NCBI GenBank assembly: GCA_903876735.1
Contig: CAIRAW010000038.1
Span: 158,932-222,931, forward strand
DNA: 64,000 bases
Source of the DNA: an uncultured beta proteobacterium
GTDB lineage: Bacteria; Pseudomonadota; Gammaproteobacteria; Burkholderiales; Burkholderiaceae_C
Direction of reading: 5' to 3'
Every line of letters starts with the position of its first letter. Within the stretch, counting starts at the first letter, position 1. Positions 7,565 to 21,695 of the stretch are shown one piece after another. The notes beneath the pieces were generated by a model. The model was not told the DNA's origin. It worked only from the letters and a program-made list of their open reading frames with translations, and did not search any database. Made by a program: the position numbers and the translations under genes.

Positions 7565-8353
7565 CTATTTGCCGGTAAATTGAGGCGGCCGTTTTTCCAG
7601 AAAGGCCCGCACGCCCTCGCGTCCATCGGCGCTGCCGGCACGGTCAACCAGCAGCAACTTCTCAAGCGCCAGATGGGCTTGCAGGTCGCGTGTCGGCAGG
7701 CCGCTGCACAAGGTCTTGATGCCGGCCAAAGATGCGCTGGCGCAGTGCGCCAGGCGCTGCACCAGTGCCTCGGCGGCGGCGGCCAGTTCGGCGTCGGGAT
7801 GCAGATAATCGATCACACCATACTGCAGGCAATGCTGCGCATCGATCGCCTCGCTCAGCATCAGCCACTGCTGTGCACGCAGGGCGCCAACGCGGCGCGC
7901 CAGAAAATAGGAGGCCCCGGCATCTGGCGACAAGCCGATTGCGGCGTAGCCGGTGCGCAGCTTCATCGACTCAGCGCCAAGCACAAAATCCCCGCACAGC
8001 GCCAAGCCAATGCCGGCGCCGGCGACCGGACCGTTGACCACCGTCACGATTGGCAAAGGCGCCGTGGCCAGTCGGTGCAGCGCCGGGTGCAGTGGCGTCA
8101 GCACGTCGTCGACCAGCGCAGCGAGCGCGGGGCCGGCCGCCACGAATTCGTTGATGTCGCCTCCCGCGCAGAAGATGCGGCCCTCGGCTGTCAGTACGAC
8201 AACACGGGGTTGGCCATCGAGCACCTCGTGAATCGCACGCACCAGTGCGCGGCTGGCTGCATGCGCCAGGGCATTCGCGTGCTCAGGCCGCCGGAGGATG
8301 ATGCGACCGATGCCACCGGCCACACCCCAGGCTATTCCGTCAGATACTTTCAT
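7565..8353 (-). CDS. Enoyl-CoA hydratase/isomerase family protein
   Basis: Crotonase-fold protein of 262 residues. The oxyanion-hole segment FCAGGDI and the second backbone-amide region NGPVAGAGIGLALCGD are intact. The position usually holding the second catalytic Glu is in AAIGLSPDAG, so the hydratase versus isomerase assignment is open. It hydrates 2-enoyl-CoA or shifts double bonds during beta-oxidation, and is closest in style to PaaG-like isomerases. It is the last gene of the large operon: 23 bases after livF, with GGAG before the ATG. It complements the two MaoC-type hydratases, so an isomerase role for unsaturated or ring substrates is plausible. Confidence 0.87.
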   Translation of the reverse strand: MKVSDGIAWGVAGGIGRIILRRPEHANALAHAASRALVRAIHEVLDGQPRVVVLTAEGRIFCAGGDINEFVAAGPALAALVDDVLTPLHPALHRLATAPLPIVTVVNGPVAGAGIGLALCGDFVLGAESMKLRTGYAAIGLSPDAGASYFLARRVGALRAQQWLMLSEAIDAQHCLQYGVIDYLHPDAELAAAAEALVQRLAHCASASLAGIKTLCSGLPTRDLQAHLALEKLLLVDRAGSADGREGVRAFLEKRPPQFTGK

Positions 8354-8376
8354 TGGGTCTCCACGGGAAAGAAATT

Positions 8377-9201
8377 TCAGCCCAGCCAGCGCTTGCGCCG
8401 CCGGTAATGCTTGATCTCGCGGTAGTTGTGCCGCTCGCCGCCGGCCTGATGCCCGAGGTAGAACTCCTGAATGTCCTCGTTGGCGCGCAACTGCTCGGCC
8501 GTGCCTTCGAGCACCACCCGCCCGCCTTCGAGCACATAGGCGTGATCGGCCAAGGCCAGTGCGGCCTGCGCATTCTGCTCAACGATCAGCAACGACAGAC
8601 CCTGACTGCGCAACTGTGCCAGCAGAACAAAGATTTCTTCCAGCATCATGGGGGCAAGACCGAGCGAGGGCTCATCGATCAGCAGCAACCTGGGCTGGCT
8701 CATCATGGCGCGGGCAATCAGCATGAGTTGCTGCTCGCCGCCCGACAGGTAGCCAGCGGTGCGGGCGCGCAGGTCGGCCAGCCGCGGAATGGTCTGGTAG
8801 ACCCGGTCCAGTTCATGGCGCACATCGCTCATGCGCGCCAGCAGGTGGCCGCCCACCACCAGGTTTTGTTCAACCGTCAGATGGCGCAGCACCTTGCGCC
8901 CCTCGACCACATGCACGACACCGGCCGCCACCCGGTGCTGACAATCCTGCCGGCTCAAGTCCACGCCCCGGTAGCGAACCGCGCCGGCAGCGATCTCGCC
9001 GTCTTCAACCACCAGCAGCCCCGAAATTGCTTTCAGGGTTGTGCTCTTGCCGGCGCCGTTGGGGCCGAGCAGCGCCGTGCAGCCGCCTTCGGTGACGATC
9101 AGATTGACGCCCTTGAGCGCCAGGATCACTTCCGAGTAGAGAACCTCCAGGTTCTCTACGGCGAGCAGTGGCGCGCTCTTGACTGCGGCTGGCTCAGTCA
9201 T
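8377..9201 (-). CDS. livF: LivF-type ABC importer ATPase
   Basis: ATP-binding subunit of 274 residues for a branched-chain-amino-acid-type (HAAT) ABC importer. Walker A GPNGAGKST is at 46-54, the signature LSGGEQQ at 152-158 and Walker B LLLIDE at 172-177. The ATG at 9201 is preferred because it directly follows the stop of the binding-protein gene (one base apart); an upstream in-frame start would overlap that gene by 41 bases. It partners LivG at 14.4-15.2 kb and the permeases LivH and LivM. Context with CoA ligases and beta-oxidation genes suggests a carboxylic-acid substrate rather than leucine. Confidence 0.9.
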   Translation of the reverse strand: MTEPAAVKSAPLLAVENLEVLYSEVILALKGVNLIVTEGGCTALLGPNGAGKSTTLKAISGLLVVEDGEIAAGAVRYRGVDLSRQDCQHRVAAGVVHVVEGRKVLRHLTVEQNLVVGGHLLARMSDVRHELDRVYQTIPRLADLRARTAGYLSGGEQQLMLIARAMMSQPRLLLIDEPSLGLAPMMLEEIFVLLAQLRSQGLSLLIVEQNAQAALALADHAYVLEGGRVVLEGTAEQLRANEDIQEFYLGHQAGGERHNYREIKHYRRRKRWLG

Positions 9202-9202
9202 T

Positions 9203-20877: not shown

Positions 20878-20939
20878 GGTAGTTTTCCTTTTCGAGCCCG
20901 GGAATACGGGCGGCAATTTGCAGTGATGACAGTGGCCTG

Positions 20940-20963
20940 ATGTTACCGTCCGGTAAGTAACAT
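20940..20963. promoter_or_regulatory. Composite palindrome, probable TetR operator
   Basis: Two overlapping inverted repeats. The outer arms ATGTTAC (20940-20946) and GTAACAT (20957-20963) enclose 10 bases. The inner arms TTACCG (20943-20948) and CGGTAA (20951-20956) enclose 2 bases. The centres are offset by two bases. It lies in the 125-base gap between the divergent CoA ligase and tetR starts, 39 bases before the tetR ATG. Position and symmetry fit autoregulation plus operon control by the TetR protein. Confidence 0.6.
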
Positions 20964-21002
20964 ATCCACTAGGTACTTTCCCTGACTGCTAGAATTCGGG
21001 CC

Positions 21003-21695
21003 ATGAATACTGCTGCAAAAAGCGCAAGAATCAAGTCACCGGATGCCGACCCGGCCCCCGCTTTGCCAAAGCCAAACACCGCGCGTTGGGGCAGTGAAGT
21101 ACAAAGCAGCGCCGAACAGGGCGATCTCAAACGATTTGCGATTCTGCGCACGGCAGCCGAGCTTTTCAACGAACGCGGCTTTTATGAGACCTCACTCAAC
21201 GAACTGGCCAAGCGCCTGAACGTCACCAAACCCAGCCTCTACCTTTATTTTAAGAACAAGGACGACATCCTGCTCCAGATCCTCAACCAGGCCACGGTTG
21301 AATTCAAGCCAGCGATGGACCTCGCCGAGGAATCCGGTCTGTGCGGGATCGAAAAGCTCAAGATTTTTGTCACCCAATACACGACGGCGATGACTGGCGT
21401 CTTTGCAAAATGCATGGTCTTGTCAGGATTGGGGCCGCTGGAGCCCTCCAGCCGCGATCAACTGACCCCAACTTTTCGTCTGCTCGACACCTTTGTCAGA
21501 CGTTTGCTGGAAGAAGGCATAGCCGACGGCTCGATCACGCCCTGCGACACAAAAATGACGACGTTCACACTTTTCGGCGCCATGCACTGGCTGGCCAGGT
21601 GGTACCGGCCGGACGGAGAGCTCCAGCCGCAAAAAATTGCGGAACAGGTGTTCACCATCTTTGAAAACGGGTTGGGTAAGGTCCGTCGACCGTGA
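21003..21695 (+). CDS. TetR-family transcriptional regulator of the catabolic operon
   Basis: Regulator of 230 residues. An unusual N-terminal extension of about 40 residues, rich in Ala, Pro and Ser, precedes the helix-turn-helix domain (about 43-90; ERGFYETSLNELAKRLNVTKPSLYLYF). The C-terminal ligand domain (about 95-225) is unassigned. It is divergent from the 13-gene operon with a palindrome between them. It most likely represses the operon and releases DNA on binding an acyl-CoA intermediate, as FadR/PsrA-type TetR proteins do; the ligand is inference. It is convergent with hoxJ, 10 bases apart. Confidence 0.87.
   Translation: MNTAAKSARIKSPDADPAPALPKPNTARWGSEVQSSAEQGDLKRFAILRTAAELFNERGFYETSLNELAKRLNVTKPSLYLYFKNKDDILLQILNQATVEFKPAMDLAEESGLCGIEKLKIFVTQYTTAMTGVFAKCMVLSGLGPLEPSSRDQLTPTFRLLDTFVRRLLEEGIADGSITPCDTKMTTFTLFGAMHWLARWYRPDGELQPQKIAEQVFTIFENGLGKVRRP

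Follow-up and report, generated by a model that had tools for sequence, protein, structure and literature searches.

In this work, we analyzed a 64,000-nucleotide stretch (hereafter the window) of contig CAIRAW010000038.1 from an uncultured Burkholderiaceae_C bacterium. We found 13 minus-strand genes, running from position 20877 down to 7565, that may together encode the import, coenzyme A (CoA) trapping, and beta-oxidation of alpha-branched carboxylic acids; we give this reading a probability of slightly under one half (about 0.48). In their 5′ to 3′ order, the genes encode an acyl-CoA ligase (LIG1), a thiolase (THIO), two hot-dog-fold proteins (FAS1DH and MaoC), a short-chain dehydrogenase/reductase (SDR), an acyl-CoA dehydrogenase (ACAD), LivG, a second acyl-CoA ligase (LIG2), LivH, LivM, a periplasmic binding protein (SBP), LivF, and a crotonase-fold protein (ECH), and a tetR gene starting at 21003 on the plus strand is divergent from them. 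Profile scans with Pfam and NCBIfam models agreed with an earlier note, made from the sequence alone, on the presence, order, and families of all 14 genes. The locus is genuine and coherent; its parts are each of a known kind, and their combination seems rare. Its gene order is not a matter of chance, because a Comamonadaceae metagenome-assembled genome (MAG) has 11 of the genes arranged identically at locus L039, with identities of 67-85%. The four-base overlaps that the note had called frequent were found at three of the 12 junctions (ACAD/LivG, LivG/LIG2, and LIG2/LivH), and "often" was thus generous; the remaining nine junctions have gaps of 1 to 62 bases, including 22 between MaoC and SDR with the SDR start placed at the ATG at 17134. 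For LivG, LivF, SDR, LIG1, and the first gene of the MaoC pair, the long open reading frame starts were shortened to internal ATGs. This operon-like spacing suits one transcription unit.

We propose that the locus is one inducible operon composed of a transport module and a catabolic module. The transport module (LivG, LIG2, LivH, LivM, SBP, and LivF) would take up a carboxylic acid, and LIG2 and/or LIG1 would convert it to a CoA thioester, trapping it in the cell. The LCAD-type dehydrogenase would then form a 2-enoyl-CoA, which the split MaoC pair would hydrate to the (3R)-hydroxyacyl-CoA in a peroxisome-like (3R) beta-oxidation cycle, followed by oxidation by the SDR and cleavage by the SCP2-type thiolase. 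The PaaG-like ECH may shift misplaced double bonds, and an alpha-methylacyl-CoA racemase whose gene lies outside the operon, at another place in the genome, might convert the wrong 2-epimer. Pristanate-like isoprenoid acids with a 2-methyl branch, or 2-alkyl acids (for example, 2-ethylhexanoate), would be the likeliest substrates. The previous claim that every step from uptake to thiolysis is covered holds even without ECH, and our searches of an open-access library did not contradict the statement that no substrate has been named for this gene set.

THIO scored 679.5 bits against PRK08256 (cut-off 436) and 455 bits against a type-1 SCP2-thiolase chain in the PDB, and it has the motifs NNNCS, HDCF (at 293), and GHP; by profile and motif, it is a true SCP2-type thiolase. 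LIG1 scored 522.9 bits against a long-chain fatty-acid-CoA ligase model (cut-off 476). In ACAD, E246 falls in the alignment column where LCAD chain 8w0t has E and LCAD chain 8w0z has Q, YGGT is found at 366, and the MCAD-type base position carries no catalytic glutamate. By alignment, the catalytic base is at the LCAD/IVD position, as first noted, and the enzyme is LCAD-like. FAS1DH (142.6 bits against PF13452) and MaoC (59.8 bits against PF01575) look like a split hydratase pair of the HadAB/ChsH1-ChsH2 type, with GDHNPIH present only in MaoC and GETDPVYTD in FAS1DH; this pairing is predicted, and the matches to ChsH1 and ChsH2 are weak. ECH was previously called an enoyl-CoA hydratase. The crotonase fold was recovered, but neither classical hydratase glutamate is present, and the PaaG-type aspartate is, as read from PaaG alignments, with no hydratase aligned directly; the residues that we presume to be catalytic in crotonases and PaaG served as the reference. 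This residue pattern makes an isomerase likelier than a second hydratase. The score of 177 bits against the PaaG model TIGR02280 is below the cut-off of 345, so the protein is PaaG-like rather than PaaG.

The five genes from THIO to ACAD recur elsewhere. A search with FAS1DH at 1e-12 matched 15 of 398 Pseudomonadota genomes, including the window's own. Every one of the 15 other FAS1DH loci, which come from 14 other genomes, has MaoC and a thiolase-family gene on either side of the match; the thiolase has at least 59% identity at 13 of these loci (L190 and L195 have only distant thiolases, 29 and 38%), and the SDR follows at 12. The order of the module is the same in Variovorax and on two Rhodococcus plasmids (NZ_CP046101.1 and NZ_CP050181.1), and in Caballeronia and Cupriavidus, ACAD is placed before the thiolase. 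LIG1-like genes accompany the module at several loci; LIG1 orthologues adjoin it in G001 (same genus; 85%) and G385 (same family; 62%), and both genomes also have relatives of ECH, the one in G385 (63%) lying immediately 3′ of the SDR. The catabolic half is a separable, conserved, and mobile module composed of a CoA ligase, an SCP2-type thiolase, a split MaoC pair, an SDR, and an LCAD-type dehydrogenase. In the synteny search, the Comamonadaceae MAG contig was the sole other locus examined with the 11-gene order from thiolase to LivF, its end falling inside LivF; no LIG1 match was found there, and an AraC-type gene occupies the place of LIG1 and tetR. In G028 (same genus), approximately 3 kb separates a 77% identical thiolase from a liv cassette with a LIG2-clade ligase, and no FAS1DH or MaoC match was recognized at this thiolase locus.

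Three further arrangements were observed. At L233 (G046:C26), a 69% identical thiolase orthologue lies approximately 3 kb from a liv cassette with a ligase only 36% identical to LIG2; thiolase and importer may have been brought together here in a separate event. At L119, L121/L122, L157, and L158 (same genus, family, and order), LIG2-clade ligases are joined to a different, paralogous set comprising a thiolase (36-38%), an SDR (29-35%), an ACAD (34-36%), and TetR, with a CaiB-family gene in addition at L119. At L152 (G167:C13), the neighborhood of the five-gene module includes a P450 gene, an arginase-family gene, and two genes each for class-III aminotransferases and aldehyde dehydrogenases; like the Comamonadaceae MAG, this locus has an AraC-type regulator in divergent orientation.

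For the transport half, two BPD_transp_2 permeases, two ATPases, and a Peripla_BP_6 binding protein in one cluster identify an importer of the LivFGHMK type. Every score against the NCBIfam LivF, LivG, LivH, and LivM models is below the respective cut-off, and the transported ligand is only a prediction. We scanned a public genome collection with LIG2 and kept the best 80 of at least 587 confirmed relatives. Among these 80, a LivG homologue adjoins the ligase in all, and the arrangement LivG-ligase-LivH is found in 64; at least nine phyla are represented among the rows of the LIG2 tree. A ligase inside a liv cluster is therefore the normal state of the LIG2 family, and its position is no special sign of this locus, contrary to the earlier suggestion that a ligase within the transporter genes marks import coupled to CoA trapping. 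These loci were picked by ligase similarity and are informative on the ligase family rather than on liv operons in general.

In the tree, LIG2 itself falls in a small clade that takes up 15 of the 94 rows (SH-aLRT 100 by a quick method). Its members come from one Comamonadaceae MAG, two Roseovarius, Blastococcus, a Rokubacteria MAG, and a gammaproteobacterial MAG, together with loci from the same genus, family, and order as the window and from roseobacter plasmids. When 60 relatives were searched, ligases with more than 40% identity over more than 600 residues were found only in G009, G028, and the window's genome, and at 1e-140, LIG2 matched three of 399 genomes of the order, its own included. 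The window's genome has three further liv loci with a LIG2-related ligase, adjoining LivG at C7 (L124) and behind LivF at C41 and C43 (L125 and L126). Only two relatives of LIG2 were found in viral contigs. There was no PDB sequence match to LIG2 at 1e-20 or to SBP at an E value of 0.01. The predicted structure of SBP (mean pLDDT 84.3) has the standard liv-type fold, and the top Foldseek neighbors were 3lkb (valine) and, at second rank, 4n03 (titled as a fatty acid binder), with aromatic binders close behind.

A branched substrate is a better guess than a straight one given the SCP2-type thiolase, the LCAD-type base, and a racemase gene both beside the Rhodococcus module and in the window's own genome. 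At the Rhodococcus locus L177, the gene directly after the module matches the Mycobacterium tuberculosis alpha-methylacyl-CoA racemase MCR (1x74) with 417 bits. Matches of at least 50% identity to this racemase were found within 9.5 kb of the module thiolase in three of 16 other module loci and in none of 35 control loci. The 17 module loci comprise 11 stretches from the FAS1DH search and six plasmid loci (G587, G744, G499, and G543 were left out), and for the controls, a minimum length of 19,500 bases was required of the best 80 LIG2 loci, which excluded 45 of them. The window's genome also has an MCR match (G000:C16:97110-98147; likewise 417 bits to 1x74), which adjoins an acyl-CoA dehydrogenase approximately 50% identical to the operon ACAD. 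On the roseobacter (Sulfitobacter) plasmid NZ_CP025809.1, orthologues of the SDR (71%) and the thiolase (68%) are found among AtuA-family and biotin-carboxylase genes, and a LIG2-clade cassette (50% ligase identity) lies approximately 50 kb away. The gene contexts on this plasmid, in G028, and around the racemase genes point to methyl-branched, isoprenoid-like acids. Within the window's genome (G000, 97.8% complete), we found no match to AtuA and none to PhyH, which favors entry at a 2-branched acid over carboxylation of a 3-methyl acid or alpha-oxidation. Breakdown of phytanate by alpha-oxidation was considered and set aside given the lack of a PhyH match in this genome. The plasmid NZ_CP025809.1 (L168, L164, and L169) carries an island exceeding 100 kb in which genes for acyl-CoA degradation are abundant, along with AtuA-family genes and several carboxylases; the record has three LIG2-like places.

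Several observations weigh against alpha-branched substrates. The racemase gene is absent from the operon itself, its association with the module rests on few loci, and the occurrence of any CaiB-family gene near the module differs only weakly from the controls (8/17 versus 9/35). NCBIfam gave only CoA-transferase models, below their cut-offs, for the C16 candidate and the roseobacter CaiB. No NCBIfam label identifies the C16 protein as a racemase; this assignment depends on its PDB match. The neighbors of SBP in Foldseek are mixed, with amino-acid, aromatic, and urea binders ranking alike, such that the fold alone names no ligand. The P450, aminotransferase, aldehyde dehydrogenase, and arginase-family genes beside the module in G167 suggest no isoprenoid. 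Breakdown of 2-methyl acids should yield propionyl-CoA, which requires an outlet; the methylcitrate lyase PrpB had no match above its cut-off in the genome, and no search for the methylmalonyl route was made. Furthermore, the accessible part of a report on Alcanivorax borkumensis grown on pristane describes increased FadAB and mentions no SCP2-type thiolase (PMC6850023).

Other substrate classes also deserve consideration. It is unlikely, in our view, that the operon serves a cyclic alkanoic acid or one with an aryl substituent (cyclohexyl, phenylalkanoate, or arylpropionate), with ECH and SBP dedicated to a ring compound. PaaG is nearest to ECH, many structural neighbors of SBP bind aromatic acids, and 2-arylpropionyl appears among the names given to MCR in the PDB; however, the operon proteins matched no ring hydroxylase or ring-cleavage family, the ligands of the SBP neighbors are mixed, and PaaG-type folds also isomerize aliphatic enoyl-CoAs. 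General import and beta-oxidation of long- or medium-chain fatty acids, with no branched specialty, would agree with the long-chain cut-off exceeded by LIG1, with the closeness of ACAD to long-chain acyl-CoA dehydrogenase chains, and with the title of 4n03. We hold this to be improbable given that the thiolase is of the SCP2 type, with no FadA-type thiolase, and that an MCR-type racemase lies beside the module at some loci; in addition, presence in 15 of 398 genomes makes the module a poor fit to a housekeeping route.

The earlier note had favored branched, cyclic, or steroid/terpenoid side-chain acids over straight fatty acids. The preference for a branched substrate stands, but a steroid side chain and, for this genome, an acyclic terpenoid degraded by the Atu route are now disfavored. 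Degradation of a steroid or bile-acid side chain is very unlikely: although cholesterol side-chain enzymes are broadly similar to the split MaoC pair and SCP2-type thiolase, and ChsH1 and ChsH2 gave weak matches, LIG1 reached 266 of 750 bits against the steroid-24-oyl-CoA synthetase CasG. For NF005882 (PRK07843.1), which we take to be the ketosteroid dehydrogenase (KstD) family, the genome's best match scored 94 bits against a cut-off of 788. According to the accessible text of one source, YDCY is the motif of the steroid aldolase Sal and YDHF that of Ltp2, and both enzymes act with a DUF35 partner (PMC12329534). A steroid aldolase identity for THIO is disfavored, since the residues at 293 are HDCF and profile scans found no DUF35 match among the operon proteins. 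Degradation of acyclic terpenoids (citronellate or geranate) by an Atu-like route is very unlikely. The roseobacter plasmid, on which SDR and thiolase orthologues lie among AtuA and carboxylase genes, speaks for it, as do mutants of Thauera linaloolentis deficient in growth on linalool, some of which, in the accessible part of the report, had insertions in branched-chain amino acid transporter genes (PMC4847356). However, AtuA had no match in the window's genome, and the operon proteins matched no carboxylase or HMG-CoA-lyase family.

At the sequence level, the operon is a mosaic in which LIG1 and THIO are closest to a same-genus genome and the next enzymes to another lineage. In G001, the gene order is LIG1-THIO-FAS1DH-MaoC-SDR-ECH, and no liv cassette was found in the 14.2 kb read (one LivG-like match, 27%). 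Protein identities between the window and G001 are 85% for LIG1 and 89% for THIO, but 45, 60, and 71% for FAS1DH, MaoC, and SDR; the corresponding values for G385 are 62 and 70%, then 85, 79, and 87%. When DNA identity was compared in 300-base steps, the nearest relative switched at step 18177-17878, with a resolution of one step, and a later step (16977-16678) was almost even (80 versus 84%). In the THIO tree, the window groups with G001 (100/100), and a grouping with G385, L039, and G167 was rejected (log-likelihood difference 161.7); in the FAS1DH-MaoC-SDR tree, the window groups with these three (100/100), and pairing with G001 was rejected (difference 137.2). The trees used 18 hand-chosen loci, and the groups for the approximately unbiased test were named after the identities were known, such that its p-values are not clean. 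We infer that a resident LIG1-THIO end was joined to a foreign FAS1DH-to-ACAD stretch already carrying the liv-LIG2 cassette, as in L039. The switch may instead be an assembly joint between two populations; the window sits within a 245-kb contig. The mosaic pattern suggests that such operons recombine at gene borders.

Among known systems, peroxisomal branched-chain beta-oxidation employs AMACR, MFE-2/HSD17B4, and the SCPx thiolase. The likeness lies in a racemase, a MaoC-type hydratase-2, an SDR-type (3R) dehydrogenase, and an SCP2-type thiolase that act in order on 2-methyl acyl-CoAs. In contrast, the operon encodes separate polypeptides, an LCAD-type dehydrogenase takes the place of the oxidase, the MaoC hydratase is split in two, an ATP-binding cassette (ABC) importer is dedicated to the pathway, and the racemase is encoded outside. 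LivFGHMK importers with an acyl-CoA ligase are similar in gene content and order, but here LIG2 belongs to its small clade and a whole catabolic module is attached. The Rhodococcus plasmid module (annotated as lipid-transfer protein, two MaoC, SDR, ACAD, and CaiB) shares its five genes and their order with the operon, and TetR genes lie close by; unlike the operon, it has a racemase-type gene in the cluster and no liv genes annotated in the stretches shown. Sal/Shy and Ltp2/ChsH1-ChsH2 likewise have a thiolase fold adjoining a MaoC-type hydratase, and differ in their aldolase motifs and the DUF35 partner. The atu system shares thiolase and SDR orthologues with the operon through the roseobacter island, and differs in its carboxylase, HMG-CoA lyase, and AtuA.

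Many genomes contain "branched-chain amino acid transporter" genes with an adjoining CoA ligase, which are probably acid importers misnamed by annotation, and this locus has such a liv-ligase cassette joined to a full degradation module. If the proposed substrate is correct, the operon would provide a genetic handle on the bacterial breakdown of alpha-branched acids, including isoprenoid acids from chlorophyll and petroleum and 2-ethylhexanoate from plasticizers. A Rhodococcus strain, YC-JH2, was reported in a consortium degrading 2-ethylhexyl diphenyl phosphate (EHDPP), according to the accessible part of the source (PMC13418517). For the plasmid module of this strain, 2-ethylhexanoate is a candidate substrate, and nothing links the module to EHDPP. 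More broadly, the operon could be a bacterial counterpart of the peroxisomal route for alpha-branched isoprenoids, equipped with its own ABC importer and vectorial acylation and drawn from a large importer class with swappable modules; we regard this broader proposal as doubtful. In such vectorial acylation, the liv-linked ligase would work at the transporter and draw the acid inward by converting it to its CoA ester. If this is the correct reading, the presence of liv-linked ligase cassettes in at least nine phyla would imply a large unrecognized class of acyl importers, to which recombination attaches different catabolic modules in exchange for one another.

The region between LIG1 and tetR contains a dyad (Table 1) with ATGTTAC/GTAACAT arms 10 nucleotides apart and a nested TTACCG-2 nt-CGGTAA. 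TetR may bind this dyad and repress the operon through the divergent promoter region. The genome contains a single copy of the inner 14-base pattern, a number that chance alone would permit. A TetR match divergent from the module was found at L191-L193 (46-52%, partial matches at locus ends) and at L221 (35%). Consensus scans returned one promoter-like site (2.1 expected) and 11 terminator-like sites (12.1 expected).

Table 1. Features of the operon and its divergent regulator; coordinates refer to the window.
Feature	Coordinates	Strand	Basis
TetR-family regulator (TetR_N + TetR_C_24), divergent	21003..21695	+	Pfam
Operator-like dyad between LIG1 and tetR	20940..20963	.	Inverted repeat
LIG1, FadD-like acyl-CoA ligase, 518 residues	19321..20877	-	Profile matches
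THIO, SCP2-type (SCPx) thiolase, PRK08256	18074..19258	-	NCBIfam, PDB match, motifs
Putative recombination junction, THIO/FAS1DH gap	18030..18073	.	Identity switch, trees
FAS1DH, non-catalytic-type hot-dog subunit (PF13452) of predicted split MaoC pair	17589..18029	-	Pfam
MaoC, catalytic-type subunit (PF01575), GDHNPIH motif	17157..17576	-	Pfam, motif
SDR dehydrogenase (FabG-like), 275 residues	16307..17134	-	Profile matches
ACAD, LCAD-type acyl-CoA dehydrogenase, base E246	15152..16303	-	Profile and PDB alignment
LivG ATPase	14355..15155	-	Profile matches
LIG2, AMP-binding acyl-CoA ligase of liv-associated family, 653 residues	12397..14358	-	Profile, tree
LivH permease	11516..12400	-	Profile matches
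LivM permease	10460..11512	-	Profile matches
SBP, periplasmic binding protein (Peripla_BP_6)	9203..10435	-	Pfam
LivF ATPase	8377..9201	-	Profile matches
ECH, crotonase-fold, PaaG-like, probable enoyl-CoA isomerase	7565..8353	-	Profile, alignment

Several other genes flank the operon in the window. Just past tetR, and convergent with its end, is a PAS-histidine kinase gene (21709-23055, minus strand). Beyond it are genes for the large and small subunits of a NiFe hydrogenase (23074-26804, minus strand), preceded by a 400-residue protein (25605-26804) that matches only the C-terminal approximately 75 residues of the NiFe large-subunit family. On the other side, a putative flavin reductase-type gene (4745-5377, minus strand; by reading) and, downstream of ECH, a gene for a lipoprotein-like lipase with a Lipase_C domain (5415-6827, minus strand) were found. 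A lipase gene likewise lies 3′ of the module on the Rhodococcus plasmid pRJH3.

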